From the NCBI GenBank assembly GCA_016187415.1, contig JACPJT010000002.1, positions 1-44,569 on the forward strand: a stretch of DNA of 44,569 nucleotides, given 5' to 3'. The stretch's first letter is position 1. Each line of letters begins with the position of its first letter. This document shows positions 30,847-44,014 of the stretch, one piece after another. The translations under genes and the position numbers were made by a program. The stretch is from Candidatus Aenigmatarchaeota archaeon (GTDB taxonomy: Archaea > Aenigmatarchaeota > Aenigmatarchaeia > CG10238-14 > SCSR01). Under the pieces are notes generated by a model. That model was not told where the DNA came from and did no database searches. It saw nothing but the letters and a program-made list of their open reading frames with translations.

Positions 30847-30971
30847 GGGCGGGTAGCTTAGCCTGGTTTTCTCTGTACCAGAGAGAGCAATCGACTTATA
30901 TGTCAGCTGAGCTGAGACATCGATAAGTTAACACTCGATAAAGGTCAAGGGTTCAAATCCCTTCCTGCCCA
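30847..30971 (+). tRNA. tRNA gene with two intron-like insertions, probable anticodon UAU (Ile)
   Basis: The acceptor stem GGGCGGG pairs with CCTGCCC (30964-30970), discriminator A. The T arm is AAGGG-TTCAAAT-CCCTT (30947-30963). The D stem GCTT/GAGC encloses a 25-nt loop that contains the hairpin TCTCTG-TAC-CAGAGA; removing about 16 nt would restore AGCCTGGTT-A. The anticodon stem ATCGA (30890-30894) pairs with TCGAT (30935-30939), with loop CTTATA before an insertion of about 33 nt (30901-30933). This reads anticodon TAT with U33 and A37, and the body resembles archaeal tRNA-Ile (GGGC..GTAGCTTAGCCTGG). The variable region is 7 nt, two more than usual, so the exact 3' splice point is uncertain. 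Confidence 0.75.
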
Positions 30972-30979
30972 TTCTTATT

Positions 30980-31492
30980 TTATAATGGTCCTTCAATCAC
31001 AGAATCCAAATACTGCATTTTATCCGCTTCACTTCTCTTAGATTTTAAATATCGTTTCCATGCATTTTTTTCATGATTAACAATACCCAATTCCCAGATA
31101 CAGAAAGCACCTTCGCTTCTTATGTCAAGAGGTTTGGCTGTATCTAAATCAGGTGCACCAAGTAAACCCTGCCCATAACCGTATATTTGGTTTTTAATGA
31201 CAACCGGATATTTTGTATCCCATCTAGCAACGTTTAACATATCCTCTGAAAGAATGACAAAACCTAGCCCCAAGTACGGTTCTATTTTACCTTGTCGAAT
31301 CTCCTTTTTTAAGAATTCTTTGCTTTGTCGAATAAAGGCGATATCGTGGGGCGGTGTACCATCGACATACATATCATACAATTTCAAAACTAGAGACGGA
31401 GCTGTAACCAATCCGGCAGACCAAACTTTCCTTTGTTTATGTACATATCCTTGTGGAACATTACCTAGTATTTCGTAAACCATCCGTATCAA
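30980..31492 (-). CDS. Hypothetical protein, 170 residues
   Basis: Not recognised. It has mixed alpha/beta content with aromatic-rich segments (QGYVHKQRKVWSAG; PVVIKNQIYGYGQGLLG; FCIWELGIVNHEKNAWKRYL) and no membrane helix or metal site. The central IEPYLGLGFVILSEDMLNVARW might be a strand-helix pair. The listed start and Met4 at 31483 are equally possible. It lies alone downstream of RNase Z on the same strand, 49 nt away, with an A+T-rich leader. Confidence 0.6.
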   Translation of the reverse strand: MIRMVYEILGNVPQGYVHKQRKVWSAGLVTAPSLVLKLYDMYVDGTPPHDIAFIRQSKEFLKKEIRQGKIEPYLGLGFVILSEDMLNVARWDTKYPVVIKNQIYGYGQGLLGAPDLDTAKPLDIRSEGAFCIWELGIVNHEKNAWKRYLKSKRSEADKMQYLDSVIEGPL

Positions 31493-31541
31493 ATGTTACT
31501 TGTTAATAAGATTTATAAGTTCATTCCGACTTCAAAGTCAA

Positions 31542-32462
31542 TCATTTTTTCAATTCAACTTTCATGAAATCATGGGCAATCTTTGTATTAGGAAATACCT
31601 TCTTCGCCCGTTCTTCCATTTCCTTAACATCATCGCGGTTGTACCTTCTGCTGAGGTGCGTTAAAATCAATTCTTTGACATCCGCTTTCTTTGCAATCTT
31701 CGCAGCTTCAGCCACATCTGCATGGTACTTGCCTTGCGACTCGTCTAATTCAAGAAATGTTCCGTCATGTATAAGCATATCCGAATCCTTGGATATCTTC
31801 ACTACGGTTTCGCACGGCTTGGTATCGCCTGTATAAACAACTTTCAGCCCGTCCTTCCTGTTTGCAATATCTGAGAGCTTGATTTTTTTTCCCCTGTATT
31901 CGGCTTCGCCCTGCTTCTTCAGTTTCTCCAGCCAGCTGCCGCGTTTCAACCCAAGATCCTTCATTTTATCCAAGTCTATTCCCCATCTGTCCTTTTCCTT
32001 GAAACAATATGCGACACTCGGAACGGTGTGCAAAGTCGGTATCGACAGCACTTCAAACTCTTCAGAGTCCATAATCTTGGTTATTTCATCGCCTTCAAAC
32101 GGAACGTTTACAGCATTGATGGGAAATCTCAAGCCGAAGTACCCCAGGTCTATTATGTCTGCGACAAACCTTTCCGCTTCAGGACCATATATCGTCAATT
32201 CCTTTTTTCTTTTTTCCATGTTCATTGTTTGTATCAACGGTATCAACCCTGCAAAATGGTCGGCGTGCCAGTGTGAAATGAATATGTTGTCTACGTCCAT
32301 GAAGCTGATTCCCGACATCATCAACTGCTTTTGAGTGCCTTCGCCACAGTCGAACAAAAGCGTGGATTTGATATCAGAAAAATATTCGAAAATAATGGCC
32401 GAGTGATTTCTGTCCTTTGTTGGAATGCCCGACACAGTGCCCAAGAATGTTATTTTCAGCAT
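31542..32462 (-). CDS. rnz: Ribonuclease Z (tRNA 3' processing endonuclease)
   Basis: Metallo-beta-lactamase nuclease that cuts tRNA precursors after the discriminator base. The zinc motif HWHADH is at 64-69 (NIFISHWHADHFAGL). Further ligands are in TLHTVPSVAY, VVYTGDTKP (about 210-218) and ILTHLSRRY (about 266-274). Length 306 is normal for the short form. The CCA-adding enzyme gene lies two genes upstream on the same strand, so the tRNA 3'-end enzymes are grouped; both would act on the intron-containing tRNAs here. Confidence 0.95.
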   Translation of the reverse strand: MLKITFLGTVSGIPTKDRNHSAIIFEYFSDIKSTLLFDCGEGTQKQLMMSGISFMDVDNIFISHWHADHFAGLIPLIQTMNMEKRKKELTIYGPEAERFVADIIDLGYFGLRFPINAVNVPFEGDEITKIMDSEEFEVLSIPTLHTVPSVAYCFKEKDRWGIDLDKMKDLGLKRGSWLEKLKKQGEAEYRGKKIKLSDIANRKDGLKVVYTGDTKPCETVVKISKDSDMLIHDGTFLELDESQGKYHADVAEAAKIAKKADVKELILTHLSRRYNRDDVKEMEERAKKVFPNTKIAHDFMKVELKK

Positions 32463-32474
32463 ATAATATATTAG

Positions 32475-32990
32475 TTATTCTTCTAAATCTAGGTTTTCGC
32501 CCAAATCTGCACATCTAAGGGATTCTATTTTTTTAATAGCTTTAAAATTGTCTTTTGTGACAAGGCCTGAACCGAATTTTCTTTCAAGTTGACGCTTTAA
32601 TCGCGTTGGGCGTATATAACTATAATAAAGATCTGCAACAAAAGCCGATGATGCTATAAGACTCATCATGCCACCTACAACTGATAGGTGTGGTGAAGAA
32701 CTTTGAATGCTGTTATATGTCATATAGACAGCGACTGTAGTGGCTAACCCCAACGAAGGAACTGTAAATCTTCTACCACGTATGCCATTAAAATAGGTAG
32801 ACATCTTCCCATGCGCCTCTAACGCTCTTTGAATATCCGCATCTTCCTCAAATACATTCAATCTCTGTCTGTAGTCATTCCTTAAAGGGCCTATCCTAGC
32901 TTGATAATCTCTGGCCAAAACGCGTGCTTGATTTCTAAATTTAGAAGCCTTTTCTTCCGCAACTCTAATCAGTTCTGGTCTGGCATCCAT
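32475..32990 (-). CDS. Hypothetical membrane protein, 171 residues
   Basis: The first ~75 residues are charged and helical (AEEKASKFRNQARVLARDYQARI). Two hydrophobic segments follow at about 80-96 (SLGLATTVAVYMTYNS) and 104-125 (VVGGMMSLIASSAFVADLYY), then a basic-acidic cytoplasmic tail. This suggests a two-helix membrane anchor with both ends inside. I do not recognise a family. It sits between rnz (12-nt gap) and cca (30-nt gap) and is probably cotranscribed with them. Confidence 0.65.
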   Translation of the reverse strand: MDARPELIRVAEEKASKFRNQARVLARDYQARIGPLRNDYRQRLNVFEEDADIQRALEAHGKMSTYFNGIRGRRFTVPSLGLATTVAVYMTYNSIQSSSPHLSVVGGMMSLIASSAFVADLYYSYIRPTRLKRQLERKFGSGLVTKDNFKAIKKIESLRCADLGENLDLEE

Positions 32991-33020
32991 AAAATAGAAT
33001 CCGTCAGTAAGTATTTATCT

Positions 33021-34448
33021 CTATGATAAACTTTCTTTTTCAAAGTAATTCCTTAAAAACACGCCAAAGTTCTTATCCTTTTTAACCAGTTGCGACAACT
33101 TTTTGGCGTCTGAAATTATGTCAACCTGCTTGCTGACTTGATCCGCTATGTAATTCGGTATTCCTTTCGCCTTTAATATTTCGGCGTTCTTGCTCAGGCT
33201 GTCCACTAGCTTTTCGTGGGCGGTAACGAACTTTCTTTTTATTTCAACTGCCCAATTCACGCCTTCAGAAAAGGGTCCCGTAAGTGGCTTTTTATATTTC
33301 TCCAAGAATCTTGCCGAATCCACGACATCAAAAACGCTGGGTCCGACTCTTTTTTGCACATGCGGCAGCCTGAATATCTCCAATTCGAGCAGAACAACGG
33401 CTGTCTTTACTTCGTCCGAATAGGCGTCCCGTCGTAAAACCTTGAATTCGTACCTGGACTCTTCCAATATGTCCTGCAGCCTTTCTGAAAATCTGTTTAG
33501 CTGCGGCCACAGAATGTCCGGGACGACTTTTGGCGGGGCAAATTTCACCAGTATCAAATCGGTTTTTCTCTGCTGCAACTTTTGGCTCAGTTCCCTGCTT
33601 GTAATAGGTTTCTGCCTTTTCTCTGCGAAATATTTCTCACTGGGCTTGGCCAAAAATTCTTTGGCGAGTTTCTTGAATTTCAGGAAATTTTCTACGGACA
33701 ATGCCGCGACCGTATTTCTATTCTTATCAGTGGGGTCTATTAGTGTCAGTGGGTTGTTTCTGAATTTTTCTTTCAGCTTCTTGAGGTCTTCGTTCTTGTA
33801 GTGATTTTCCACGTCAATTGCTTCGCCTGGTTTCCATCCGGAAGCATGCCTCAAGACTTCAAGGAATCCGCCATAACGAATCGTTAGGATCTCGCATACG
33901 TAACCAGAGAAGCCTTCCGTCTTGGCGTCAGCACCATAAAGTTTGTTCGCTGTGAGAAACTGCTTAAGCAATCTTACTTCATCCGATAAAACCGGCTGTA
34001 ATCTCTTTTCAATATACTTCACGTGAAATGGCGTCCTGTCAACTGCGGATTTTATCCTTTCGGCCGATTCGACTTCATAACAAGGAACTATGTCTATGTC
34101 GATGCCTTCTACGATGCCCGAAGCGTACGGGTGCTGGGCATACTCTACAGAAAATTTCCCTTTCAGTTCTTTGATGACTTCCTTGCCTACCAACAAGCCA
34201 TACTCTTCCAGCTTGCTTTCTGGCAAATCTGGAGAGAATAAGAGAAACACATCGAATTCCTTTTTTCCCGGCAGCCATGTATTGCGCGTGATGCTCCCGG
34301 CTAAAATTGCCTTGGCATTGTATTTCTTTGCCTTTTCTCGTGTAATCTGAAGTGTCTTTTGTGAAAGTGTTGATAATCTTTTTTCTTCAGAAGAAGAAGG
34401 CTTGATTCTCTTAAAAACTTTATTCAAAACCTTCTGATATTCTGGCAT
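33021..34448 (-). CDS. cca: Class I CCA-adding enzyme (tRNA nucleotidyltransferase)
   Basis: Adds CCA to tRNA 3' ends without a nucleic-acid template. The nucleotidyltransferase motif is AGSITRNTWLPGKKEFDVFLLF, with GS at 51-52 and metal ligands E64/D66; a third acidic strand is GIDIDIVPCY (about 115-124). The central domain (LLKQFLTANKLYGADAKTEGFSGYVCEIL) and archaeal tail domains follow. Length 475 is normal. None of the four tRNA genes here encodes CCA, so the enzyme is required. It is the first gene of the cca-membrane protein-rnz group. Confidence 0.96.
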   Translation of the reverse strand: MPEYQKVLNKVFKRIKPSSSEEKRLSTLSQKTLQITREKAKKYNAKAILAGSITRNTWLPGKKEFDVFLLFSPDLPESKLEEYGLLVGKEVIKELKGKFSVEYAQHPYASGIVEGIDIDIVPCYEVESAERIKSAVDRTPFHVKYIEKRLQPVLSDEVRLLKQFLTANKLYGADAKTEGFSGYVCEILTIRYGGFLEVLRHASGWKPGEAIDVENHYKNEDLKKLKEKFRNNPLTLIDPTDKNRNTVAALSVENFLKFKKLAKEFLAKPSEKYFAEKRQKPITSRELSQKLQQRKTDLILVKFAPPKVVPDILWPQLNRFSERLQDILEESRYEFKVLRRDAYSDEVKTAVVLLELEIFRLPHVQKRVGPSVFDVVDSARFLEKYKKPLTGPFSEGVNWAVEIKRKFVTAHEKLVDSLSKNAEILKAKGIPNYIADQVSKQVDIISDAKKLSQLVKKDKNFGVFLRNYFEKESLS

Positions 34449-34551
34449 AATTATAATTGGTATTTTCCATTATAATCTTGAAATTATGCCGGACTGTCAA
34501 ACCGCTTGAAGCGGCTTATTTGTCACTTATAGATAGTTAAACACCATAAAG

Positions 34552-34559
34552 CTTATATA
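34552..34559 (+). promoter_or_regulatory. TATA box that decides the start of the small gene at 34583
   Basis: CTTATATA is centred about 27 nt before the ATG at 34583. An earlier in-frame ATG at 34559 overlaps the box itself and cannot be on the mRNA, so the leaderless ATG at 34583 is preferred. Confidence 0.55.
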
Positions 34560-34582
34560 TGAGTAACTACTATAAAGTGACT

Positions 34583-34771
34583 ATGTCAAATGGATTTAGA
34601 ATCAGTAGAACAGGAAATGGAACTAGCCTGATAGACGAACATAACGATTTTCTTAAAGAACAACTAATGGATGCTCAGCAATCTTTATTTTTCGCCAAGA
34701 GCGTCAAAGAAGCCAAGTTCCTGCAAAGCAGGATCAACTACTTGAGAGAAAGGCTTAAAACGAAGAAATAG
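34583..34771 (+). CDS. Small helical hypothetical protein, 62 residues
   Basis: The protein starts MSNGFRISRTGNGTS and continues as one long amphipathic helix (DFLKEQLMDAQQSLFFAKSVKEAKFLQSRINYLRERL). It is probably a small dimeric coiled-coil protein. The start was set by the TATA box 24-31 nt upstream. I do not recognise it. It leads a run of three same-strand orphan genes. Confidence 0.55.
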   Translation: MSNGFRISRTGNGTSLIDEHNDFLKEQLMDAQQSLFFAKSVKEAKFLQSRINYLRERLKTKK

Positions 34772-34781
34772 AGGTTTTATT

Positions 34782-35006
34782 ATGAATGGTGTAGTGGATT
34801 TATTCACCAAGATTCGGCAATATTGCAGAGATGGTGACAGTACTAAAATTGGTTTTATTCGCTTAGTTCTTATGGAGAACCCTGACAAGACTGTTCATGG
34901 TATAAACTACAAGGAAAGAATTGTTACTGATTATTCAAGTAGAACGCTACCTATCGGAAGACATTATAAAATCCCGCCTGTGATGGCTGGACATGATAGA
35001 AACTAG
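34782..35006 (+). CDS. Small hypothetical protein, 74 residues
   Basis: Not recognised. MNGVVDLFTKIRQYCRDGD begins a helix, followed by a strand segment (KIGFIRLVLMENPDK) and a basic C-terminal part. It lies 10 nt after the preceding small gene and overlaps the next by 14 nt, which supports cotranscription and real coding. Confidence 0.5.
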   Translation: MNGVVDLFTKIRQYCRDGDSTKIGFIRLVLMENPDKTVHGINYKERIVTDYSSRTLPIGRHYKIPPVMAGHDRN

Positions 35007-35427
35007 TCTAGAGTTGGATGAGATGCCTAGCAATTATGAACAAACACTGATTTCTGAAGGATATGAAGAAAGACCTTATGGCTGGAGAAAATCTCTTTCT
35101 GGTACTAGTCAATTAATAGTTATCGAACCGGGAAAGCACACAGGAATAAATGTGGCATCATTAAATACCCAAGGTTTACGCGGGCATCCTGGTGAGATTT
35201 GGGAGCGCGCCATGCATTTGGGTTGTTTGGACGGGACTGATGGCAATGAGTCGCTTTTATACAAAGTTTTAGATGGTAAAGATGTACAAGAACGATCTTA
35301 TCGGAGAGGACAATCGTTCTTTTCTGTATCGCCAGACGGATCAGGCGAGAATAAACCTGGGTATTGGCACATAATGGCAAATAATTCTGACAAGCCGATC
35401 AGATTATTGATTAGATGGAGAAAATAG
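34993..35427 (+). CDS. Hypothetical cupin-like protein, 144 residues
   Basis: The pattern of beta strands with Gly-turns (SQLIVIEPGKHTGINVAS; GQSFFSVSPDGSGENKPGYWHIMANNSDKPIRLLIRW) resembles a small cupin or double-stranded beta-helix, where an H-x2 and a later W-H-x-M could bind metal. The match is weak and the classic HxHx(3-4)E...H motif is not complete. Its stop codon overlaps the 3' end of the convergent tRNA-Gln by 3 nt. The function is unknown. Confidence 0.55.
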   Translation: MIETSLELDEMPSNYEQTLISEGYEERPYGWRKSLSGTSQLIVIEPGKHTGINVASLNTQGLRGHPGEIWERAMHLGCLDGTDGNESLLYKVLDGKDVQERSYRRGQSFFSVSPDGSGENKPGYWHIMANNSDKPIRLLIRWRK

Positions 35428-35497
35428 CCCCGAGCGGATTCGAACCGCCGTCCCGAGAGCCAGAGTCTCGTGTCCTTGACCACTAGACGACAGGGCT
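35425..35497 (-). tRNA. tRNA-Gln (CUG), intronless
   Basis: Acceptor AGCCCTG pairs with CGGGGCT, discriminator A. The D arm is GTCT-AGTGGTCAA-GGAC. The anticodon stem CGAGA/TCTCG holds loop CTCTGGC, giving anticodon CTG (Gln). The T arm is GGCGG-TTCGAAT-CCGCT. The tRNA is 73 nt with no insertion, in contrast to the other three tRNAs of this window. CCA is not encoded. Its 3' end overlaps the stop codon of the convergent gene. Confidence 0.93.
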
Positions 35498-35536
35498 ATA
35501 TCAATATTTGATAAAGTTATAAAAACTATTTAATTT

Positions 35537-36043
35537 ATGAGCAAACGAGCACATAAGTTCGAAATATTTGTCGACTCATTAATTCCTTTGGCAATACTTC
35601 TAATTATATTAGTGACCATAGCCGAGATTTTCTTTTCGAGTTTGACGCAACAATACTACTGGGCCATAGATGCGATGGATTTGTTTATTGTTGTCCTATT
35701 CGGTCTTGATCTACTTTTCAAGTTGAAACATGCAAGAAGCGTACCGAACTTTTTGAAAACGCACTGGATATACATCCTTGCCGTTTTTCCATTTTTTATT
35801 GTCTTCAGGTTGCTTGAAAGGTTTTACAGCGTATCGACAATACCGCCCGGATATACCGTAATTCTTGGGAGGTATGTGACAAGCCTTATACGCGAGATAA
35901 GATTGGTGAGGTTTGCCGAGATTTTTAGCTTTTTGGGACTATCACCCAAGTGGCTGAGAGCCTTATATTTCTATGAGAACCCAAAAATAAGACATAAAAT
36001 AAAAGTAACAAAATTATTGAGAACTGGAATAAAGAGAAAATGA
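35537..36043 (+). CDS. Voltage-sensor-like four-helix membrane protein
   Basis: About four hydrophobic segments: 12-32 (LIPLAILLIILVTIAEIFF), 43-62 (AIDAMDLFIVVLFGLDLLF), 74-91 (HWIYILAVFPFFIVFRLL) and 105-130. The last carries Arg at three-residue steps (GRYVTSLIREIRLVRF), the pattern of an S4 voltage sensor. No pore helix or selectivity filter follows, so it resembles an isolated voltage-sensor domain rather than a full channel. It ends 4 nt before the ThrRS gene and probably shares its mRNA. Function is inferred only from topology. Confidence 0.65.
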   Translation: MSKRAHKFEIFVDSLIPLAILLIILVTIAEIFFSSLTQQYYWAIDAMDLFIVVLFGLDLLFKLKHARSVPNFLKTHWIYILAVFPFFIVFRLLERFYSVSTIPPGYTVILGRYVTSLIREIRLVRFAEIFSFLGLSPKWLRALYFYENPKIRHKIKVTKLLRTGIKRK

Positions 36044-36047
36044 CGAT

Positions 36048-37766
36048 ATGAGAATTTTGCAATCGCATTCAGATTTCATAGAGTTCGAACCTACACAGAA
36101 GGAGATTCCTCAGGCTGAGGATGTGGAAAAAAGGAAATACAGATACGACGACGTTGTCGTGCTGTTTGTTTCTGTAGAAGAGGGTGACAATGAGTCGATC
36201 GCTAAGAAGGCCGTAGATGACGTGAAAGATTTTCTGGGCAAAGTAAAATGCAACAGAATTGTGATATACCCGTTTGCCCACTTGAGCAGGGACTTGGCCA
36301 GACCTTTGGAAGCGCTGAAAATTGTAAACGAGATGGAATCTTATGCCAAGTCATTGAAAATTGAAACGTATCGTGCACCATTCGGATGGACAAAGGCACT
36401 GAACATAAAAATAAAGGGGCATCCTCTGGCAGAAACTGCCAAAATATATTCCAAGGAGGAAAAAGCCGAAAATAATTTGAAATTCGATGAAAAGAAAATA
36501 GTGAGACAAACCAAAAAAATAATTCTTGACAGAACCAAACTCCCACCGAACGATCACAGGATACTTGGACAGAATCTGAAAATATTCACATTCGCCGATC
36601 AGGTTGGTGCGGGATTGCCTTTGTGGTTGCCAAATGGGGAAATTATAAGGCACCAATTGGAAGAATTCATGCGAAAGATGGAAGAAAAATACGGCTACAA
36701 ATACGTGAGCACTCCTGCAATTACAAAAGGTGTACTCTATCACGAGACTGGGCATCTGCCTTATTATCAGGATTCAATGTACCCGCCATTTTCAATCGAA
36801 GACGAAGAATACTACTTGAAACCAATGAACTGCCCGCATCATCACATGATATTCAAACAGCTTGTGAAAAGCCACCGTGACCTGCCGCTAAGACTGGCCG
36901 AAGCCGGGACGACTTACCGAAAGGAATTGTCCGGTGTCACATATGGATTGATAAGGGTTCTTGCGTTCTGCCAGAATGATGCTCACATTTACGTTACCAA
37001 GGATCAATTGAAAGATGAATTTATCAAAGTTCTCCAGTTGTTCAAAGAAGTCTACGAGGTCATGGGAATCAAAGGCTACTGGTTCAGACTTTCCCTGCCT
37101 GATTTCAAGAAGCATCCGGAAAAATACACCGGAGACCACAAGGAATGGAAATTTGCATCGGAAGAAATACGTGATGCTATGAAAGAATTCGGACAAAAGT
37201 TTGTTGAAGGCGAAGGCGAAGCTGCGTTCTACGGACCTAAGATTGACGTTCAGATTAAAAACACCCTCGGTAAGGAGGAGACCGTTGCAACATCCCAGAT
37301 AGACATTGTTGTTCCTAAACGATTGGGACTTGTTTACACCGACAAAGATGGTGGTGAAAAGAATGTCATAGTGATTCACCGCGCTGTTCTTGGCAGCTAT
37401 GAAAGATTTATTGCGTATCTATTGGAGCAGACAAACGGAAACTTGCCTGTCTGGCTATCGCCTGTGCATGTCAAAATATTGACGATATCGGAAGACAATA
37501 TAAAGTATGCGAAAACTGTTGAACGGTCGCTTGCTGAAAGTGGGATAAGAGTCGAAGCGGATTATAATTCGTTGACGATCGAGCATAAAATCAGGAATGC
37601 TCAGATGCAAAAGGTTCCTTATTCTATTGTAATCGGCAAGAAAGAAGAATCAAACAAGACCGTTGCTGTCAGATCAAGAGACGGAAAAGTTAAGTATGGC
37701 ACGAAATTAAAAGATTTTGCGAAACAGATTCATAGTGAGATAGAAGAATGCAAGAAATTTCTCTAA
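36048..37766 (+). CDS. thrS: Threonyl-tRNA synthetase, archaeal type
   Basis: Charges tRNA-Thr. The N-terminal ~135 residues (MRILQSHSDFIEFEP..NRIVIYPFAHLSRDLA) are the archaeal editing domain related to D-aminoacyl-tRNA deacylase, which removes Ser. The class II catalytic core has the zinc ligand Cys in MNCPHHH, motif 2 RLAEAGTTYRKELSG, the second ligand in FCQNDAHIY and motif 3 with VIHRAVLGSYERFIA. The anticodon-binding domain ends the chain (about 470-570). Length 572 is somewhat short for the archaeal form. It follows the voltage-sensor-like gene by 4 nt. Confidence 0.96.
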   Translation: MRILQSHSDFIEFEPTQKEIPQAEDVEKRKYRYDDVVVLFVSVEEGDNESIAKKAVDDVKDFLGKVKCNRIVIYPFAHLSRDLARPLEALKIVNEMESYAKSLKIETYRAPFGWTKALNIKIKGHPLAETAKIYSKEEKAENNLKFDEKKIVRQTKKIILDRTKLPPNDHRILGQNLKIFTFADQVGAGLPLWLPNGEIIRHQLEEFMRKMEEKYGYKYVSTPAITKGVLYHETGHLPYYQDSMYPPFSIEDEEYYLKPMNCPHHHMIFKQLVKSHRDLPLRLAEAGTTYRKELSGVTYGLIRVLAFCQNDAHIYVTKDQLKDEFIKVLQLFKEVYEVMGIKGYWFRLSLPDFKKHPEKYTGDHKEWKFASEEIRDAMKEFGQKFVEGEGEAAFYGPKIDVQIKNTLGKEETVATSQIDIVVPKRLGLVYTDKDGGEKNVIVIHRAVLGSYERFIAYLLEQTNGNLPVWLSPVHVKILTISEDNIKYAKTVERSLAESGIRVEADYNSLTIEHKIRNAQMQKVPYSIVIGKKEESNKTVAVRSRDGKVKYGTKLKDFAKQIHSEIEECKKFL

Positions 37767-37812
37767 GAAAAAGTTTTAATTAAATATAACTAGATAGTAT
37801 ACAATTCAAGAC

Positions 37813-38631
37813 TTAATTCATCGGCTTGGAACTGTTCCATACCATTTTGAACAACGGCTCCAGCAAGCTACCTGCGGCATGCTCGCTCTTGCTCCAGAAC
37901 GCGACATGTTGCGTGTCGTGGACTTTATTGTCTGTCAGTGAGAACACCAACTCTTTGCCGTCGACAACAGCAAACCTGCCTGAAATCGGGACCTCTTTTG
38001 AGGTTAATGATCGTATTTCAGCGACATCATTCAACGCCTTGCAGGCGTCTGTAGACTTTTCAGCGCCTGAAGCGGCTATCTGCACTTTGACTCCCCTGTC
38101 AACTGCTTTCTTCAGGTCGTTATAATGATTTTCATACAGGTCCGTAAGCCCTTCTTGTGTGGTGACAATGTTTATCCTCTTGTTTGCTACTTTGAACATT
38201 GACGAAAGCTGCTGCATAACAGAATATTTTCCTTTCAATGAACCGGTCATCTCTTCTGGAGTAACCATGCTCATTCCTTCTGTAAATATAGAATTCAATT
38301 CCTTCAGCACTTGAGACGACTTCAACTCGTCTATCCTTTCCATGGTGGTGTTCATGTCCTCTTCGACTTTCTTTTTTGCCCTGTCAAGTGCTTCTGCAGG
38401 CTGGACAGCAACATATTTCAACGGCTTGGCGGTCTGCACAACAACAAATCCCTTTTCGGCAAGGCTTTGCAGTATGTCATAGCTTCTGGACCTTGGAACA
38501 TTGGCGATTTCCGATAATTCTCCTGCCGTGGAAGTCCCTCTCGCCAGTAAAGCAACCCATAATTTCCTTTCGTATAGGTTGAGACCGATTCCTTTCAACG
38601 CATCCAATGCTTTTTGTGAAGCTAATGCCAT
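37813..38631 (-). CDS. TrmB-family transcriptional regulator
   Basis: Winged-helix regulator of the TrmB type. The N-terminal wHTH spans about 10-85 (GLNLYERKLWVALLARGTSTAGELSEIANVPRSRSYDIL). A coiled-coil dimerisation segment (about 86-115) precedes a C-terminal phospholipase D-like ligand domain (RINIVTTQEGLTDLYENHY; RGVKVQIAAS). In other archaea such proteins sense sugars and repress transport or glycolysis genes; no sugar genes lie near. The target is unknown. A 9-bp inverted repeat surrounds its promoter. Confidence 0.9.
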   Translation of the reverse strand: MALASQKALDALKGIGLNLYERKLWVALLARGTSTAGELSEIANVPRSRSYDILQSLAEKGFVVVQTAKPLKYVAVQPAEALDRAKKKVEEDMNTTMERIDELKSSQVLKELNSIFTEGMSMVTPEEMTGSLKGKYSVMQQLSSMFKVANKRINIVTTQEGLTDLYENHYNDLKKAVDRGVKVQIAASGAEKSTDACKALNDVAEIRSLTSKEVPISGRFAVVDGKELVFSLTDNKVHDTQHVAFWSKSEHAAGSLLEPLFKMVWNSSKPMN

Positions 38632-38695
38632 ATTATCACGATTATTAAATTCTGGATTACAAGCTTTTAAATGTTATTGTTACTTGGTGATAATA
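38631..38695. promoter_or_regulatory. TATTATCAC/GTGATAATA inverted repeat at the TrmB-type promoter
   Basis: TATTATCAC (38631-38639, touching the start codon) and its exact inverse GTGATAATA (38687-38695) are 47 nt apart and bracket a TATA-like segment (AAGCTTTTAAA on the plus strand, about 38661-38671). A dimeric or tetrameric regulator bound to both arms could repress its own gene. Confidence 0.4.
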
Positions 38696-38720
38696 ATAAC
38701 TGCCGAAAGGTTTAAAAGCA

Positions 38721-40409
38721 TTATCCTTCACGTCCCTGAGACTTGAAAAGAGAGACGACTCTGTCTAATGTATCGGGCTCGGATTTCTCTAAAGTCCTCT
38801 CCCTGATAAACCGCGGAAAGCGCAAAGCGAATCCCGAACTGTAATTTGTTGATTTCTGTATCTCCTGATAGCCTACTTCGACAATAATTTTTGGCCTGAC
38901 AAAAACCGTTCTGTTCTTTTCGCTGACAATGAGATATTTCAACTTCTTTGTCATGTCCTTGTACTGTTCTTCCGTTAACCCGGTGGACATCATTCCGCAT
39001 TCCAGCAACTTTCCAGTATCAGGATCTTCACACGCGAGTATGTAGCTGGTAAGCCACTTCGCCCTAGTGCCTTCGCCCCACGTTGCACCGACCACAGCCA
39101 AATCCAGAGTCTCCATTATCGGCTTTATCTTGTACCAGCCGCCGACATGTCTTCCGAATACGTATGGCGAATCGATTACTTTTAGGAAAATGCCCTCTTG
39201 ATTCGCATTAAGGGCTTCTTGATAGAATTTATCCAATTCCCCAGCATCGCCGCTCACAATTTGCTTGGCAAGTTGGAATTTATCCGAAATTGGCTTGACA
39301 ATTTTTTCCAATATGTCCCTTCGCTCTTTTAACGGCTTTTCGAAAATCGATTTTCCATCGCAATAAACAACATCAAAAAGATTCACTTGGACAGGAATCT
39401 CTTTTGCCATTTTTTCAATGTCGTATTTTCTGTGTATTCTCTGGCTCAGGACCTGAAATTGCACGGGCTTGCCGTTTTTAATTCCCAGTACTTCGCCTTC
39501 GACTATGCATTCATCAGCTTTCAAACATTTTCTTACAAATTCACAAACATCTGGGAATTGTCTAGTCACATCCTCCAGTCTTCTTGTGAAGACCCAAACC
39601 GTGGGACCCCTTTTATGGATTTGGCAACGCATTCCGTCGTACTTGTATTCGGCTATGACTTTGCCGAATTCTCCGGTAACGTCCTCGATTTTTTCTGCGG
39701 CTAATCCCAGCATGACTTGAATTGGCTTTCCCAGAAATGGCATGACATTCTTTAAACTTTCAATGCCTTTCTCTTTGGCCATCTTCGCAACTTCACCAAA
39801 ATCAGACACTATGTTCAAAGCATAATCAACTGCCTTTTTCTTTTCTTCGTCTGTGGATTTGACATCAACTAAAAATGCTTTTACCACCGCGTCTCTTAGC
39901 AGACCTTCAGCTACCCCTATTCTTAATTCTCCCAAAATTGTCCTGACTATGTATTTCGCTTCTTTTGGTTGCGCAGAAATGATCAGTTCCGATATCAAAT
40001 TTAATTTTTTATCTTGGGATCCTGCTCCTGTGATTGTCGCTAATTTCTGTAAATTCTCAAAAACATGATCAGTTGTCAGCTTTTTTTTCATTAGGCTTGA
40101 TTGCTTTCTTATTTTCACGCATTGTTCGGCAGTCAGTCCCAAGTCGCCTGTCTTCTTCAATATGCCTTCCACATTTTCTGTGGAAATGCCGGAAGCTTTT
40201 GAAATGGCTTTCATCATCATCTGTGTTGCTATTCCTAACTCGGATTCTGATGAAGAGGGAAAAACTCGTCCCTGCAGCAAAAGAACGATCTTGGATAACT
40301 GGTCAGATGGCACTAACCTGAAGAAATTTGCAACGATGCCTGTTTTTGCTAATTTTGATGGCACCGATTCCAATTTTTCATACTTGTCAACAAGTGTCGA
40401 ATAATCCAT
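38721..40409 (-). CDS. lig: ATP-dependent DNA ligase
   Basis: Seals nicks in replication and repair. The N-terminal DNA-binding domain covers about 1-205. Motif I is EYKYDGMR with the adenylated Lys at residue 256 (259 when counted from the upstream ATG). Motif III is in AVDYA..VFTRRLEDVTRQFP, motif IV in CIVEGEVLG, motif V in QEGIFLKVIDSPYVFGRHVGGWYKIKP, and the OB-fold domain includes VAVVGATWGEGTRA type strands. The ATG at 40409 is preferred because a TATA box (TTTATAAT, minus strand near 40436) is about 27 nt upstream; an ATG at 40418 adds three residues. At 562 residues, length is normal for the archaeal enzyme. Confidence 0.96.
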   Translation of the reverse strand: MDYSTLVDKYEKLESVPSKLAKTGIVANFFRLVPSDQLSKIVLLLQGRVFPSSSESELGIATQMMMKAISKASGISTENVEGILKKTGDLGLTAEQCVKIRKQSSLMKKKLTTDHVFENLQKLATITGAGSQDKKLNLISELIISAQPKEAKYIVRTILGELRIGVAEGLLRDAVVKAFLVDVKSTDEEKKKAVDYALNIVSDFGEVAKMAKEKGIESLKNVMPFLGKPIQVMLGLAAEKIEDVTGEFGKVIAEYKYDGMRCQIHKRGPTVWVFTRRLEDVTRQFPDVCEFVRKCLKADECIVEGEVLGIKNGKPVQFQVLSQRIHRKYDIEKMAKEIPVQVNLFDVVYCDGKSIFEKPLKERRDILEKIVKPISDKFQLAKQIVSGDAGELDKFYQEALNANQEGIFLKVIDSPYVFGRHVGGWYKIKPIMETLDLAVVGATWGEGTRAKWLTSYILACEDPDTGKLLECGMMSTGLTEEQYKDMTKKLKYLIVSEKNRTVFVRPKIIVEVGYQEIQKSTNYSSGFALRFPRFIRERTLEKSEPDTLDRVVSLFKSQGREG

Positions 40410-40462
40410 ACAATACATTTAATTTGAGAAAATTATAAATTAAGATAAAGGCGTGTTTATCG

Positions 40463-40639
40463 GTGACCATTAGCCACACATATTCATTGAACTGGAGACA
40501 CCCATTTTGTTCGAGTTGCCTAAAGAACTCGCATGCAGAACAAAAAGCTGTTCTTAAGAAGATATTTTCGCCGAATGATGAAAACGTGTGTGAAGAACTG
40601 TTCGTTTGCACGAAATGCGGCTCCACGAGCCGGATGTAA
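40463..40639 (+). CDS. Tiny zinc-binding protein (58 residues, GTG start)
   Basis: A GTG-initiated frame runs 58 codons to TAA at 40637-40639. It contains two cysteine pairs, FCSSC (residues 15-19) and CTKC (about 49-52), separated by a helical stretch (NSHAEQKAVLKKIF). That is a zinc-ribbon-like arrangement with 29 residues between the pairs. A TATA-like TTATAAATTA lies about 25 nt before the GTG (40432-40441), favouring a leaderless transcript. It fills what would otherwise be a 260-nt gap between DNA ligase and the nitroreductase gene. No family is recognised. Confidence 0.6.
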   Translation: MTISHTYSLNWRHPFCSSCLKNSHAEQKAVLKKIFSPNDENVCEELFVCTKCGSTSRM

Positions 40640-40680
40640 AAGGATTTACTCTTAACTTGCGAATTATTCTTTAGGATTAT

Positions 40681-41304
40681 ATGGACTATTTCAATGCTGT
40701 AACTACGCAAAGTACGACAAAAAAATATGAAAAGAAAGGTGTAGAGGACAAGGTCATCGGCGTTGTTTTGTACATGGCCAACCACGCCGAATCAGTCGGC
40801 AATCTTCAGGGGTGGGAATTTATAGTGGTTAAAGATCCAGAAACCAAGAAACGTCTTTCTGGAGCCGCTTTGAAATTAGATGTGGTGAAAGATGCTCCGG
40901 TAGATATTGTTGTTTGTGCCGACTTGAAAAAATTCAGTCTGAAGTATGAAGAAAGGGGTGAATATCTTTATTCTATACAGGACACAGCCGGTGTGATAAC
41001 CATAATGCTATTGACTGCGCAGATACTAGGATTGGGTGCGAATTGGATAAGGGCATTCGATGAAGATGGCGTCAAGCAAATTTTGCAGCTACCAAACGAA
41101 CTAAGGCCCGTAGGAATAATAACTCTTGGGTATCCATTCGAAAAGGTGAAAAAACCGAAAATAAAACAGTTTGAGTATATGACGTGGTCGGACCAGTTTA
41201 AGAAAAAGTATGACATATCCTACCTGTTCCAAGCGGGACCTAAAGAACAGGTTTTCAAACCTATAGTAAACCAGATTCTTGACAAATTGAAGAAGAAGGA
41301 ATAG
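40681..41304 (+). CDS. Nitroreductase-family FMN-dependent oxidoreductase
   Basis: FMN-binding oxidoreductase fold. The N-terminal MDYFNAVTTQSTTKKYEKKGV corresponds to the family start (R-x-S-x-R-x-F), here with Thr/Lys in place of the Arg/Ser residues that touch the FMN phosphate. The family marks NLQGWEFIVVKDPE (about 40-53), DTAGVITIMLLTAQILGLGANWI (about 101-123) and a C-terminal LRPVGIITLGYPFE are clear. At 207 residues it has normal length. The electron donor and substrate cannot be told from sequence. Confidence 0.88.
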   Translation: MDYFNAVTTQSTTKKYEKKGVEDKVIGVVLYMANHAESVGNLQGWEFIVVKDPETKKRLSGAALKLDVVKDAPVDIVVCADLKKFSLKYEERGEYLYSIQDTAGVITIMLLTAQILGLGANWIRAFDEDGVKQILQLPNELRPVGIITLGYPFEKVKKPKIKQFEYMTWSDQFKKKYDISYLFQAGPKEQVFKPIVNQILDKLKKKE

Positions 41305-41341
41305 TTTAATATTAAGAAAAGGAAATATTATTAGTGAACCC

Positions 41342-42781
41342 ATGAGCAAACTCTTTGTTTCTGTCTTTATCATCGCCTTGATGCTTAGTGCGTCTGCCGC
41401 ATTGGCGACTGGTGTAGACGTATCGGCGTCTAAAGGCAGTGTAAACGGCTATACGACAGAGGACGTGTCTGTTGACGTTGTTGTTAAAAACCTTGAAAGC
41501 AAAGCCGACACGTTCACATTGTCCTTATTCCCGCCCCAGTTAGAAAAAATAAGCGCCAGCCTGGGAAACTTTTTGGTTACATTGAACCCAAATGAAGAAA
41601 AGACCGTAAAATTGACATTTTCCATACCGATTGACGCTACACCCGGTGCGATAAAGTTCGAAGTTAGCGCAAAATCGGCTTCCGACGGCTCTGTGAATGA
41701 CACGCAGGATGTCATATTGAACGTCAAAAGGCTGACCCCTGTCTACATACAGAATCTGGACATGGATAAATATTCAGCTAACTCGGGTGACAAAATTAAC
41801 ATAAACGCCAAAGTTTACAACCTTGATGATTTTCGGTCTGATAAATATGTTTTGAAGATAACCATTAGTAAGGGTAACAGCATAGTTAAGGCTTTTGACG
41901 AAAGCTTGGATTCTATAGGAGCCAAGTCTTCGGTTAATGTTGTAGAAAGCTTCAATCTGGATACTTATTCTGCTCCCGGGAGTTATGTAGTCGATGCCGA
42001 GCTGAGGGATATGTCAAACGTACTCAGGCATTCCAAGTCTCTTAACTTTAATGTGAACACAATCACCAAAGACCCGACCGAATATACTCAAAAATCCACC
42101 GCTTATAGCGTTCTCTATTCGAGTGTTGTTATAAAAGTCAAGAACGAAGGGAACATTCCATTGCAGTCATTTACATTAACTGAATCCATACCAAAATTTG
42201 CACAGAGTTTGTTTTCCCCTGACATCGAACCTATTCAGAGCACTTCTGTGGATAACCGTGTCGTATACACATGGTCTGTGCCTTCACTGATTCCAGGGGG
42301 AGAATACACCATTTCGTATAAAATTACAATCTGGAGGATATGGATTGTGATTGGACTGGTAAGCGGGATAGGTTACGGCGCTTACAGATGGTTGTCAAAG
42401 CCGAGAATAAGCAAAATCGCCAAGCACCAGGGCGAATTGACAAAAGGAACAGAAGTCGTGGTGCTTATCGAGCTCAAAAACAGGGCACTGCATGAAATAA
42501 AAGATGTTGAAGTCGTAGATATCATCCCGCAAATAGCAAGAGTCGTAGACCGCTTCGATACTCTAAGGCCGCGAGCGAAAAAAGTTGTGGGCGGGATAGA
42601 ACTTAGGTGGAATTTCGATTCCATGAAACCGGGTGAAGAGCGGGTAATAACATACAGGATTAAACCGGTGGTTGATGTCATTGGCACCTTGAACCTCCCA
42701 GAAGCGCAAATGATTTACATGGACAGGCATAAAGTCAGAAGAACAAGCATATCCAAACAGGCTCTTACAAAAGCTGAATGA
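41342..42781 (+). CDS. Secreted/membrane S-layer-type protein with Ig-like repeats
   Basis: The N-terminal 22 residues (MSKLFVSVFIIALMLSASAALA) form a signal peptide. Three beta-sandwich repeats of the CARDB/NEW3 type follow (VNGYTTEDVSVDVVVKNLE; YSANSGDKININAKVYN; LYSSVVIKVKNEGNIPLQSF). One transmembrane helix lies at about 331-350 (IWIVIGLVSGIGYGAYRW). Beyond it is another beta-sandwich-like domain (VVVLIELKNRALHEIKDVEVVDIIP). Proteins with this layout are cell-envelope proteins in archaea. The location of the last domain, inside or outside, is unclear. It is isolated before tRNA-Tyr. Confidence 0.8.
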   Translation: MSKLFVSVFIIALMLSASAALATGVDVSASKGSVNGYTTEDVSVDVVVKNLESKADTFTLSLFPPQLEKISASLGNFLVTLNPNEEKTVKLTFSIPIDATPGAIKFEVSAKSASDGSVNDTQDVILNVKRLTPVYIQNLDMDKYSANSGDKININAKVYNLDDFRSDKYVLKITISKGNSIVKAFDESLDSIGAKSSVNVVESFNLDTYSAPGSYVVDAELRDMSNVLRHSKSLNFNVNTITKDPTEYTQKSTAYSVLYSSVVIKVKNEGNIPLQSFTLTESIPKFAQSLFSPDIEPIQSTSVDNRVVYTWSVPSLIPGGEYTISYKITIWRIWIVIGLVSGIGYGAYRWLSKPRISKIAKHQGELTKGTEVVVLIELKNRALHEIKDVEVVDIIPQIARVVDRFDTLRPRAKKVVGGIELRWNFDSMKPGEERVITYRIKPVVDVIGTLNLPEAQMIYMDRHKVRRTSISKQALTKAE

Positions 42782-42822
42782 ACTGCAAAGTTTTAATATT
42801 AACAATTTATCTATTCTATTAA

Positions 42823-42951
42823 CCCCGCTTAGCTCAAATCCGAATAGGAGAGCAATGGTGGAGCGCGCCGCTGTAGCCTAGTACTATAGTGCTAGAGGTC
42901 AGCACTCTACCGGATACGGTGAGGTTGGGAGTTCAAATCTCTCAGCGGGGA
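42823..42951 (+). tRNA. tRNA-Tyr (GUA) with an anticodon-loop intron and a D-loop insertion
   Basis: Acceptor CCCCGCT pairs with AGCGGGG (42944-42950), discriminator A. The T arm is GGGAG-TTCAAAT-CTCTC. The anticodon stem CGCCG (42866-42870) pairs with CGGTG (42917-42921). The loop starts CTGTAG, giving anticodon GTA after U33 and followed by G37. A 39-nt insertion (42877-42915) sits at the canonical 37/38 position and contains the hairpins CTAGTACT/AGTGCTAG and AGAG/CTCT. The D stem GCTC/GAGC (42832-42835 / 42861-42864) encloses 25 nt instead of about 9. Removing roughly 16 nt gives a normal AATC-TGGTG loop. A decoy GAGC lies inside the insertion. Confidence 0.85.
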
Positions 42952-42998
42952 TTCGACTCATAAAGCTTTTAAGGTATCTAGTACATGATAATCTTATT

Positions 42999-43110
42999 GA
43001 CGACCAAAGCGGATTGGAACTACCTGTTCCCATTTCGAACACAGAAGTAAAACAATCCAGCGTAGTGCTTCGTACTATGGCAACCGCCATGGGAAATGCA
43101 CCACGTCGTC
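42999..43110 (+). rRNA. rrf: 5S ribosomal RNA (solitary)
   Basis: 112 nt with terminal helix GACGAC/GTCGTC. The conserved loop B/C region is present (CCTGTTCCCATTTCGAACACAGAAGTAAAA, written here as its core CCATTTCGAACACAGAAGT), as is the loop E side GTACTATGGCAACCGCCATGGGAA. A TATA-like CTTTTAAGG is about 28 nt upstream (42967-42975). No 16S or 23S rRNA is within the window, so the gene is unlinked on this scale. It is preceded by tRNA-Tyr (47-nt gap). Confidence 0.93.
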
Positions 43111-43118
43111 AGCTTCTT

Positions 43119-43787
43119 TTACTTATTTGATAAGAAGTCCGTAAGTTTTCTTATTTTATGTTCAATTGTCATTTCAGGTAAAATATATTTCTTAATAAAA
43201 TCTCTGGTTTTCTTAGATACCACAAATTCCATACAATACCATTTTCCTACAATTTTTCTATCACCAAGCATACTAACTCCTGATCTATGAGTAATAGTGA
43301 CACCACATTTCAACATCTCTTTCACTGCTTTCTGAAGAAAAATCTGAGCTTTTCCACTTGTAATTCTTACAACGCATTGCGGATATTTTGACCTTTTGAT
43401 TCTAACATCACCGTCACCATCAATTAAACCCGCCAAATACGCCCCGAACTTTGTATAGTCAGCCGAAACCCAAACAGGTGGTCTCGGAGGGTCTCTTGCA
43501 TCTATATCTAACCTCTCAAAAATTGGTATCAATTGGCTTACACCTATAGAAAATTTAAATTTTCCCGAACCTAATTCGAAAATCTTTGCTTTTCTGTCAA
43601 ATATTAATTCGGATAATTGAGAGAACTTCTTTACCATTTCCAAAGATTTTGGAGCCACTTCAACTTTAACGATTATTTGACTCTTTCTATCCCTATATTT
43701 TCTTGTAGTTAAACAACCGTCACTTTGTAATACGCCCATCCAATATGCCAATTCTACTGACGGCATTATTTCTAATTTCTGCTCCAT
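43119..43787 (-). CDS. Free-standing LAGLIDADG homing endonuclease
   Basis: The 222 residues hold two dodecapeptide motifs, LAYWMGVLQSDG (13-24) and GAYLAGLIDGDGD (115-127). This is a complete monomeric two-motif enzyme with catalytic Asp at each motif end. Basic DNA-contact loops follow each motif. Unlike the HerA intein, there are no splicing blocks, so it is not an intein. It lies on the opposite strand between the 5S rRNA (9 nt away) and tRNA-Asp. In archaea such genes usually sit in rRNA or tRNA introns; this one is outside any visible intron. Confidence 0.9.
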   Translation of the reverse strand: MEQKLEIMPSVELAYWMGVLQSDGCLTTRKYRDRKSQIIVKVEVAPKSLEMVKKFSQLSELIFDRKAKIFELGSGKFKFSIGVSQLIPIFERLDIDARDPPRPPVWVSADYTKFGAYLAGLIDGDGDVRIKRSKYPQCVVRITSGKAQIFLQKAVKEMLKCGVTITHRSGVSMLGDRKIVGKWYCMEFVVSKKTRDFIKKYILPEMTIEHKIRKLTDFLSNK

Positions 43788-43889
43788 TTAAATCCAGTAG
43801 TATTTGCAGTATCATAATTATCCTGTTTTTGAAGGAGGTCATTTCCCACATTGAAGTTTTATAAATAACTAATCTATATTATCTCATGT

Positions 43890-44014
43890 GCTTGGGTCGT
43901 CTAGTGGCCTAGGATAAAGATCGAAAGATTATAACCCTGTCAAGGTCACCACAGAGCGGCTTCGAATGAGTAAAAACTCATGGGTATACGCGGGTTCAAA
44001 TCCCGCCCCAGGCG
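43890..44014 (+). tRNA. tRNA-Asp (GUC) with two insertions
   Basis: Acceptor GCTTGGG pairs with CCCAGGC (44007-44013); discriminator G fits tRNA-Asp. The T arm is GCGGG-TTCAAAT-CCCGC. The D arm is GTCT-AGTGGCCTA-GGAT (43899-43915) and is complete. About 16 nt with the hairpin ATC-GAAA-GAT separate it from TAACC-CTGTCAA-GG, which reads anticodon GTC (43939-43941). A second insertion of about 38 nt starts near 43946 and ends near 43985. Joining GGT to TATAC would complete the stem TAACC/GGTTA. It holds the hairpin ATGAGT/ACTCAT. The splice points in the anticodon stem or variable loop are not settled, and a variable loop of 3 nt would be short. Confidence 0.75.

Follow-up and report, generated by a model that had tools for sequence, protein, structure and literature searches.

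Small tRNA introns and a putative class of minimal wobble-guide introns in a Candidatus Aenigmatarchaeota genome

Known tRNA intron guides and the present genome

Why archaea keep introns in their tRNA genes is an old question, and few of these introns besides that of tRNA-Trp have an assigned function. In the Euryarchaeota (Haloferax, and sR50 of Pyrococcus), the tRNA-Trp intron is located at position 37/38 and contains two C/D-box guides, directed against nucleotides (nt) 34 and 39 of its own tRNA, with a median intron length of about 65 nt. A 2014 review calls this intron guide a unique example, and the Haloferax one is reported there to act on another copy (PMC4090602). For Pyrococcus, small RNAs (sRNAs) against nt 34 of Leu(CAA), Leu(UAA), Met, and Trp are described, of which only the Trp one is named as intronic (2021 review, PMC7994747). 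Stand-alone C/D sRNAs against nt 34 (Leu CAA, Leu UAA, and Met in Pyrococcus, Gln UUG in S. acidocaldarius) are encoded by separate genes of 50-70 nt, carry two C/D pairs, act in trans, and obey the N+5 rule (PMC7994747, PMC7668247). The modification itself, 2'-O-methylated nt 34 (Nm34), is known in archaeal Met, Trp, and Gln tRNAs, where a role in wobble restriction is discussed (PMC7668247), and in Leu CAA/UAA it is predicted to be guided (PMC7994747). Reports of other tRNA intron guides were not found in the open literature, a scope outside of which most subscription journals lie. Here, we describe the tRNA introns in a 44,569-nt stretch of a Candidatus Aenigmatarchaeota archaeon (DPANN) and in the genome to which it belongs.

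This stretch, referred to as the window, comprises positions 1-44,569 of contig JACPJT010000002.1 (assembly GCA_016187415.1). Coordinates are those of the window unless one of the contigs C2, C4, C6, or C8 is stated. The genome (G000) has a size of 735 kb and is 93.9% complete. It is intron-rich, its introns are presumably spliced by the endonuclease EndA, and, judged from sequence, an old class of introns at 37/38 quite probably represents minimal C/D-box guides for 2'-O-methylation of the wobble nucleotide. Similar to the euryarchaeal Trp intron, members of this class are situated at 37/38 and contain a putative C/D guide against nt 34 of their own tRNA, and Trp is among the guide isoacceptors of this genome as well. 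In contrast to it, they have one guide and one C/D pair in 34-40 nt and are distributed over eight isoacceptors instead of Trp only. With the stand-alone sRNAs they share the N+5 rule and overlapping targets, but they reside inside the intron of the target itself. The guide introns thus appear to be new in size, in the single C/D pair, and in the spread over eight isoacceptors, with the tRNA-Trp intron guide as the known precedent.

Elements, distribution, and pairing of the 37/38 introns

The genome was searched using the tRNA covariance model of Rfam, T-arm patterns, and an intron-aware search. Of the 41 tRNA genes identified (two on the small contig C8 not counted), 28 bear introns, at least 37 in total with 10-40 nt each, which are located in the D arm, in the anticodon stem, at 37/38, or in the variable region. 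On average, about 15% of the tRNA genes in archaea and about 48% in Crenarchaeota contain introns (2014 review, PMC4090602). That the other tRNA genes might be mostly intronless, which the first-pass annotation had considered fatal to its idea of intron spread, is hence not the case. Except for Val(CAC) and Cys, for which enumeration gave no confident intron placement, removal of the introns results in a canonical tRNA and the junctions form a bulge-helix-bulge (BHB) or relaxed BHB motif, as expected of archaeal introns. This survey did not recover either tRNA-Lys gene, Thr(GGU), or Val(GAC); these genes possibly lie in the missing 6% of the genome or have unusual T arms. Split tRNA halves were considered as well: T-arm matches without an acceptor partner were dropped, and those inspected did not resemble halves.

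The conserved class occurs outside of the window, at 37/38 of the tRNAs for Met, Trp, Leu(CAA), Leu(UAA), Gln(UUG), and Glu(UUC). Its introns share the order of a complement to their own anticodon loop, an NTGA motif (mostly TTGA or CTGA), a spacer of 4-5 nt, usually AGATGA, and an AAGAA-like 3' splice site. All seven guide introns of the genome, i.e., those of the six isoacceptors and of the Met copy on C8, possess the anticodon complement, box D, and box C, and have nt 34 as the N+5 nucleotide. These elements were recorded before any model existed, and the covariance model R1 was then built from the seven introns. Matches to R1 were obtained in 33 of 37 related genomes, many with E values below 1e-6. 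At a cutoff of E<=1e-4, 51 of 145 genomes across the phylum had a match, most of them members of the same order and class. In 21 bacterial and 15 other DPANN genomes the best E value was 4.6e-4, and a single query with the Met 37/38 intron against phage records gave no match. Among 80 R1 matches from relatives, a simple rule sufficed to connect 74 with an acceptor and a T arm, and the remaining 6 show an anticodon arm of the same kind. Two isoacceptors outside the training set, Lys(UUU) and Arg(UCU), were recovered in relatives.

Together with 20 introns from further genomes of the class, a set of 107 guide introns was obtained, whose anticodons are exclusively CAU, CCA, CAA, UAA, UUG, UUC, UUU, and UCU. 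All of them are located in tRNAs that read NNR codons of split codon boxes, or in Met and Trp tRNAs. The chance that eight random isoacceptors fall within the approximately 13 such anticodons of 46 is about 5e-6, a value to be taken only as a rough guide because the NNR/Met/Trp grouping was set up with these data already in view. Box D reads TTGA in 74, CTGA in 13, and TCGA in 11 of the 107 introns, and box C reads AGATGA in 76 and GGATGA in 7, the others being degenerate. Both motifs are therefore present, but looser than the archaeal consensus (RUGAUGA for box C, CUGA for box D), and a K-loop fold is predicted for them.

The N+5 nucleotide corresponds to nt 34 in 107/107 introns, a count that is not independent since R1 already holds the pairs of nt 32-36 and the spacing. 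Independent of R1 are the seven introns that were seen first, the new isoacceptors, and the pairs outside the model. In 87 aligned sequences the guide helix is paired to 100%, with 38, 46, and 40 double changes at nt 34, 35, and 36, respectively, whereas slid registers as controls are paired to 26-46%. Regarding the pairs outside R1, guide position 2 and nt 31 are paired in 84% (62% in shuffled sets, in which kinship among the sequences is ignored throughout), and guide positions 8, 9, and 10, with nt 37, intron nt 1, and intron nt 2 as partners, are above the shuffles as well. Position 1 and positions 11-12 are not. Pairing above the shuffles, or invariant pairing, is thus confined to positions 2-10, and this profile fits the 8-10 base pair guide duplex of archaeal C/D ribonucleoproteins (RNPs; PMC7089733, citing Yang et al. 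2016). At position 9, pairing with intron nt 1 amounts to 63% (39% shuffled, with 0/5000 shuffles as high), but pairing with exon nt 38 to 34% (37% shuffled). Position 9 therefore pairs with the intron and not with the exon, which indicates the unspliced precursor as the substrate.

The structure required for splicing covaries as well, since nt 35 and the 3' intron segment are paired in 84% versus 47% in shuffled sets. As both the guide helix and the BHB helix covary, the precursor has apparently been selected for two mutually exclusive folds, one for guiding and one for splicing. The same covariation, within the existing central BHB helix of nt 32-35 and the 3' end of the intron, would also be expected if the motif were a splicing signal only, with the anticodon complement and the 3' AAGAA as parts of the BHB for EndA and no guiding at all. 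This explanation is very unlikely, however, because the BHB partner is another, downstream segment with which an upstream anticodon complement would compete. Neither the fixed spacing of box D and box C, nor the N+5 register, nor the confinement to tRNAs for Met, Trp, and split-box NNR codons is predicted by it, and further 37/38 introns of this genome lack these elements and yet are predicted to be spliced.

For the guide function, the following course of events may be proposed. The anticodon loop of the unspliced precursor would pair with the intron guide, the duplex extending into the first intron nucleotides, and box D and box C, 4-5 nt apart, would fold as a K-loop that binds L7Ae, Nop5, and fibrillarin. 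According to the N+5 rule, the ribose of nt 34 would be methylated, giving Cm34 or Um34. The anticodon loop would then switch to pairing with the 3' end of the intron, and the BHB formed in this way would be cut by EndA to release the intron. Fibrillarin and Nop5 are encoded by neighbouring genes at C6:22350, and L7Ae, being a ribosomal protein, is expected to be encoded. The introns, their boxes, the N+5 register, the covariation, the distribution, and the genes of fibrillarin and Nop5 are direct observations, from which we infer the assembly of the RNP, the methylation, the order of steps, and the action in cis or trans. The loops of the guide hairpin often comprise only 2-6 nt in the 107 introns, and such short loops favour an action in cis. 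Loops of this size would also suit a hairpin of anticodon and intron that serves as the recognition element of a protein modification enzyme, as in case of the eukaryotic Trm4 acting on C34 of tRNA-Leu(CAA), and intron-dependent wobble modification by proteins is known (PMC4090602). A protein enzyme would leave the conserved C/D K-loop and the register unexplained, though, in a genome with fibrillarin and Nop5, and we regard it as very unlikely.

Several points, besides the circularity of the register count, weigh against wobble guiding by these introns. Box D is often UUGA instead of CUGA, and the second nucleotide of box C is mostly not U. On inspection, each intron contains one box D and one box C and thus lacks the second pair (C'/D') of a two-pair guide, and in the Trp intron (40 nt) neither a second box D at the 3' end nor a guide for nt 39 was seen. 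The minimum-free-energy fold is not always the guide hairpin, since the Met intron folds otherwise, and none of the eight introns of the window belongs to the class. Moreover, a requirement of archaeal C/D RNPs for two C/D pairs in juxtaposition is reported (PMC6770171 and its references, PMC8413462). The class behaves like a C/D guide yet lacks the two-domain feature. Given one C/D pair only, the second domain might be provided by another intron or by circularisation, or it might be dispensable. A whole intron class, defined by its decoding role (reading of NNA/NNG without NNC/NNU, in addition to Met and Trp), appears to be kept for the guiding of wobble methylation, which would sharpen the reading of NNA/NNG codons. 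On this view, one C/D pair seems to be enough for an archaeal guide, contrary to current biochemistry. The more far-reaching picture, in which a single-domain C/D K-loop guides the wobble methylation of its own tRNA in cis before splicing, in eight split-box isoacceptors, with selectively kept introns and an EndA devoid of the catalytic lysine, is tentative, and we would doubt it slightly more than trust it.

The splicing endonuclease

In agreement with the first-pass annotation, no endonuclease gene is located in the window. The EndA gene, with the catalytic domain at C6:109708-109986, encodes a protein of approximately 189 amino acids (aa) with an N domain and a catalytic C domain (PF02778, PF01974). 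It is the only EndA-type match in the genome, in a search that a divergent beta subunit could escape. One gene of this size and domain composition corresponds to the alpha4 type (about 180 aa), but the Tyr-His-Lys triad of that type is incomplete. Tyr and His are present, and Lys156 of M. jannaschii aligns, without gaps, with Ala. Within the order, 13 sequences from three families carry Ala (12 sequences) or Thr (one sequence) at the equivalent position. Two EndA architectures occur in this one order (loci L031 and L132-L148): families f1, f3, and f6 have the alpha type of about 190 aa without the catalytic Lys, and families f2, f4, and f5 an epsilon-like EndA with the catalytic Lys, of about 400 aa if the frame is intact. 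The former provide a naturally occurring example of an EndA that has the Tyr and His but not the lysine.

The Tyr-His segment is approximately 6 residues longer than in M. jannaschii and is preceded by a conserved GYGKP loop; the loops of this EndA differ from those of the narrow-specificity enzyme. An assignment of the extra residues to the ARMAN/crenarchaeal loop was rejected, because the residue numbering of PMC12397907 puts that loop further upstream (region of GYGKPLPEEEPNR), and no homology is claimed for them. Similar to the genome described here, Thermoproteales and ARMAN (Micrarchaeota) possess multiple short introns, non-canonical sites, and relaxed BHB motifs. Their broad-specificity EndA is of the (alpha-beta)2 or epsilon-2 type with the Tyr-His-Lys triad and CSL or ASL loops (PMC12397907, PMC6379350), unlike the single alpha-type gene with Ala in the Lys position. 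A broad specificity of the latter, already suspected in the first-pass annotation, is a natural inference from its substrates.

Introns of the window and their turnover

The tRNA genes for Ile(UAU), Tyr(GUA), and Asp(GUC) in the window are complete, with 125, 129, and 125 nt, respectively, and with perfect acceptor and T arms. Due to several introns per gene they are missed or miscalled by Rfam and ARAGORN, which in the window report only tRNA-Gln and one wrong Leu call in place of Tyr. Introns were parsed by enumerating all ways of cutting out one to three segments with a canonical tRNA as the result, and the junctions were scored for BHB. Instead of one short and one long insertion per gene, as described in the first-pass annotation, this resulted in eight introns, three each in tRNA-Ile and tRNA-Asp and two in tRNA-Tyr, with mostly BHB junctions. 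The long inserts of the Ile and Asp genes are two separate introns each, and the predicted insertion of about 16 nt in or next to the D arm holds for Ile and Tyr, where it is situated in the D loop, but not for Asp, whose first intron interrupts the anticodon stem. For comparison, the syntenic locus (L060) of Candidatus Aenigmatarchaeota archaeon NC_groundwater_115 was used, whose genome gives the same matches, at the same coordinates, as that of the same-genus relative G001.

The tRNA-Ile(UAU) gene (30847..30971, + strand), with a syntenic copy in L060, contains introns of 15, 18, and 17 nt. The first one, in the D loop (30869..30883, +), has 13-nt alternatives close by, and the D-arm sequence of L060 is identical. 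The second one (30901..30918, +) was placed at 37/38 by enumeration with 4/4 central BHB pairs, and the third one, in the variable region (30925..30941, +), is missing in the 112-nt tRNA-Ile of L060. The AUA codons of Ile are seemingly decoded by this tRNA; apart from the initiator and elongator Met tRNAs, the genome survey revealed no Ile(CAU) tRNA. The tRNA-Tyr gene (42823..42951, +) contains an 18-nt intron in the D loop (42838..42855, +) and a 39-nt intron at 37/38 (42877..42915, +), which is kept in L060 and lies outside the guide class. On inspection, no guide elements were seen in the 37/38 introns of either Tyr or Ile. In case of tRNA-Asp (43890..44014, +), the BHB scores are high at all three junctions, i.e., those of a 15-nt intron in the anticodon stem at 29/30 (43920..43934, +), a 14-nt intron at 37/38 (43943..43956, +), and a 23-nt intron in the variable region (43965..43987, +), where L060 has an insertion in the same place. 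The tRNA-Gln(CUG) gene (35425..35497, - strand; Rfam, ARAGORN) is intronless, as annotated before.

For the D-loop intron of tRNA-Tyr and for the anticodon-stem and 37/38 introns of tRNA-Asp, L060 contains the exactly joined sequence at the predicted joints, i.e., an empty site, which independently supports the parsing of these three introns. Conversely, tRNA-Gln(CUG) of L060 carries two insertions (13 and 14 nt) and its tRNA-Asp a D-loop insertion, which the window copies lack. Since presence and absence are clean between sister species, gain and loss must be recent, and small BHB introns appear from these sequences to be gained and lost quickly in the tRNA genes of this lineage. All introns were also compared with each other (703 pairs), and strong similarity was found nearly exclusively within the 37/38 guide class and between the D-loop introns of tRNA-Glu(CUC), ATCGGTGCCGAT, and tRNA-Glu(UUC), ACCCGTGCCGAA, the clearest likeness outside that class (L035, C2:7321-7381 region, and L041, C4:69609 region). 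As most introns have no common sequence, a spread by copying is not demonstrated. The active spread suggested in the first-pass annotation therefore gives way to a fast and recent turnover, in which small introns without mutual kinship come and go beside the conserved guide introns.

The guide introns are similar to one another, introns turn over fast overall, and LAGLIDADG genes occur near several tRNAs, which would be in line with a mobile family copied among tRNA genes, its likeness due to common descent and devoid of function. Of the explanations considered this is the least likely and highly improbable, as every guide fits the anticodon of its own tRNA, the class occurs in most genomes of the order and in the same few tRNAs, and the other introns are unrelated to the guide class and, with few exceptions, to one another. 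Judging from these sequence patterns, the conserved introns would be best explained by a wobble-guide function and not by spread.

A 222-aa LAGLIDADG-type open reading frame (43119-43787, -) is situated between the 5S rRNA gene (42996-43114) and tRNA-Asp, a site at which L060 has merely a short gap. Further LAGLIDADG matches adjoin the tRNAs for Phe (C6:108993), initiator Met (C6:150352), and His (C8:3295 and C8:3610), and a link of these genes to intron turnover is possible. Contig C8 (L017, L018) has a length of 4.8 kb and carries a second Met(CAU)-His(GUG) tRNA pair with a flank similar to the end of contig C6; it is probably a stray contig from a related species. Apart from the tRNA genes, a HerA-type ATPase gene (PF01935; 2102-4636, +) occurs in the window, the frame of which is apparently broken by an intein, with an insert that starts with CLSSDTEILTQKGWKKYNEL and ends with VKNGAFVARREGKIFITGN.

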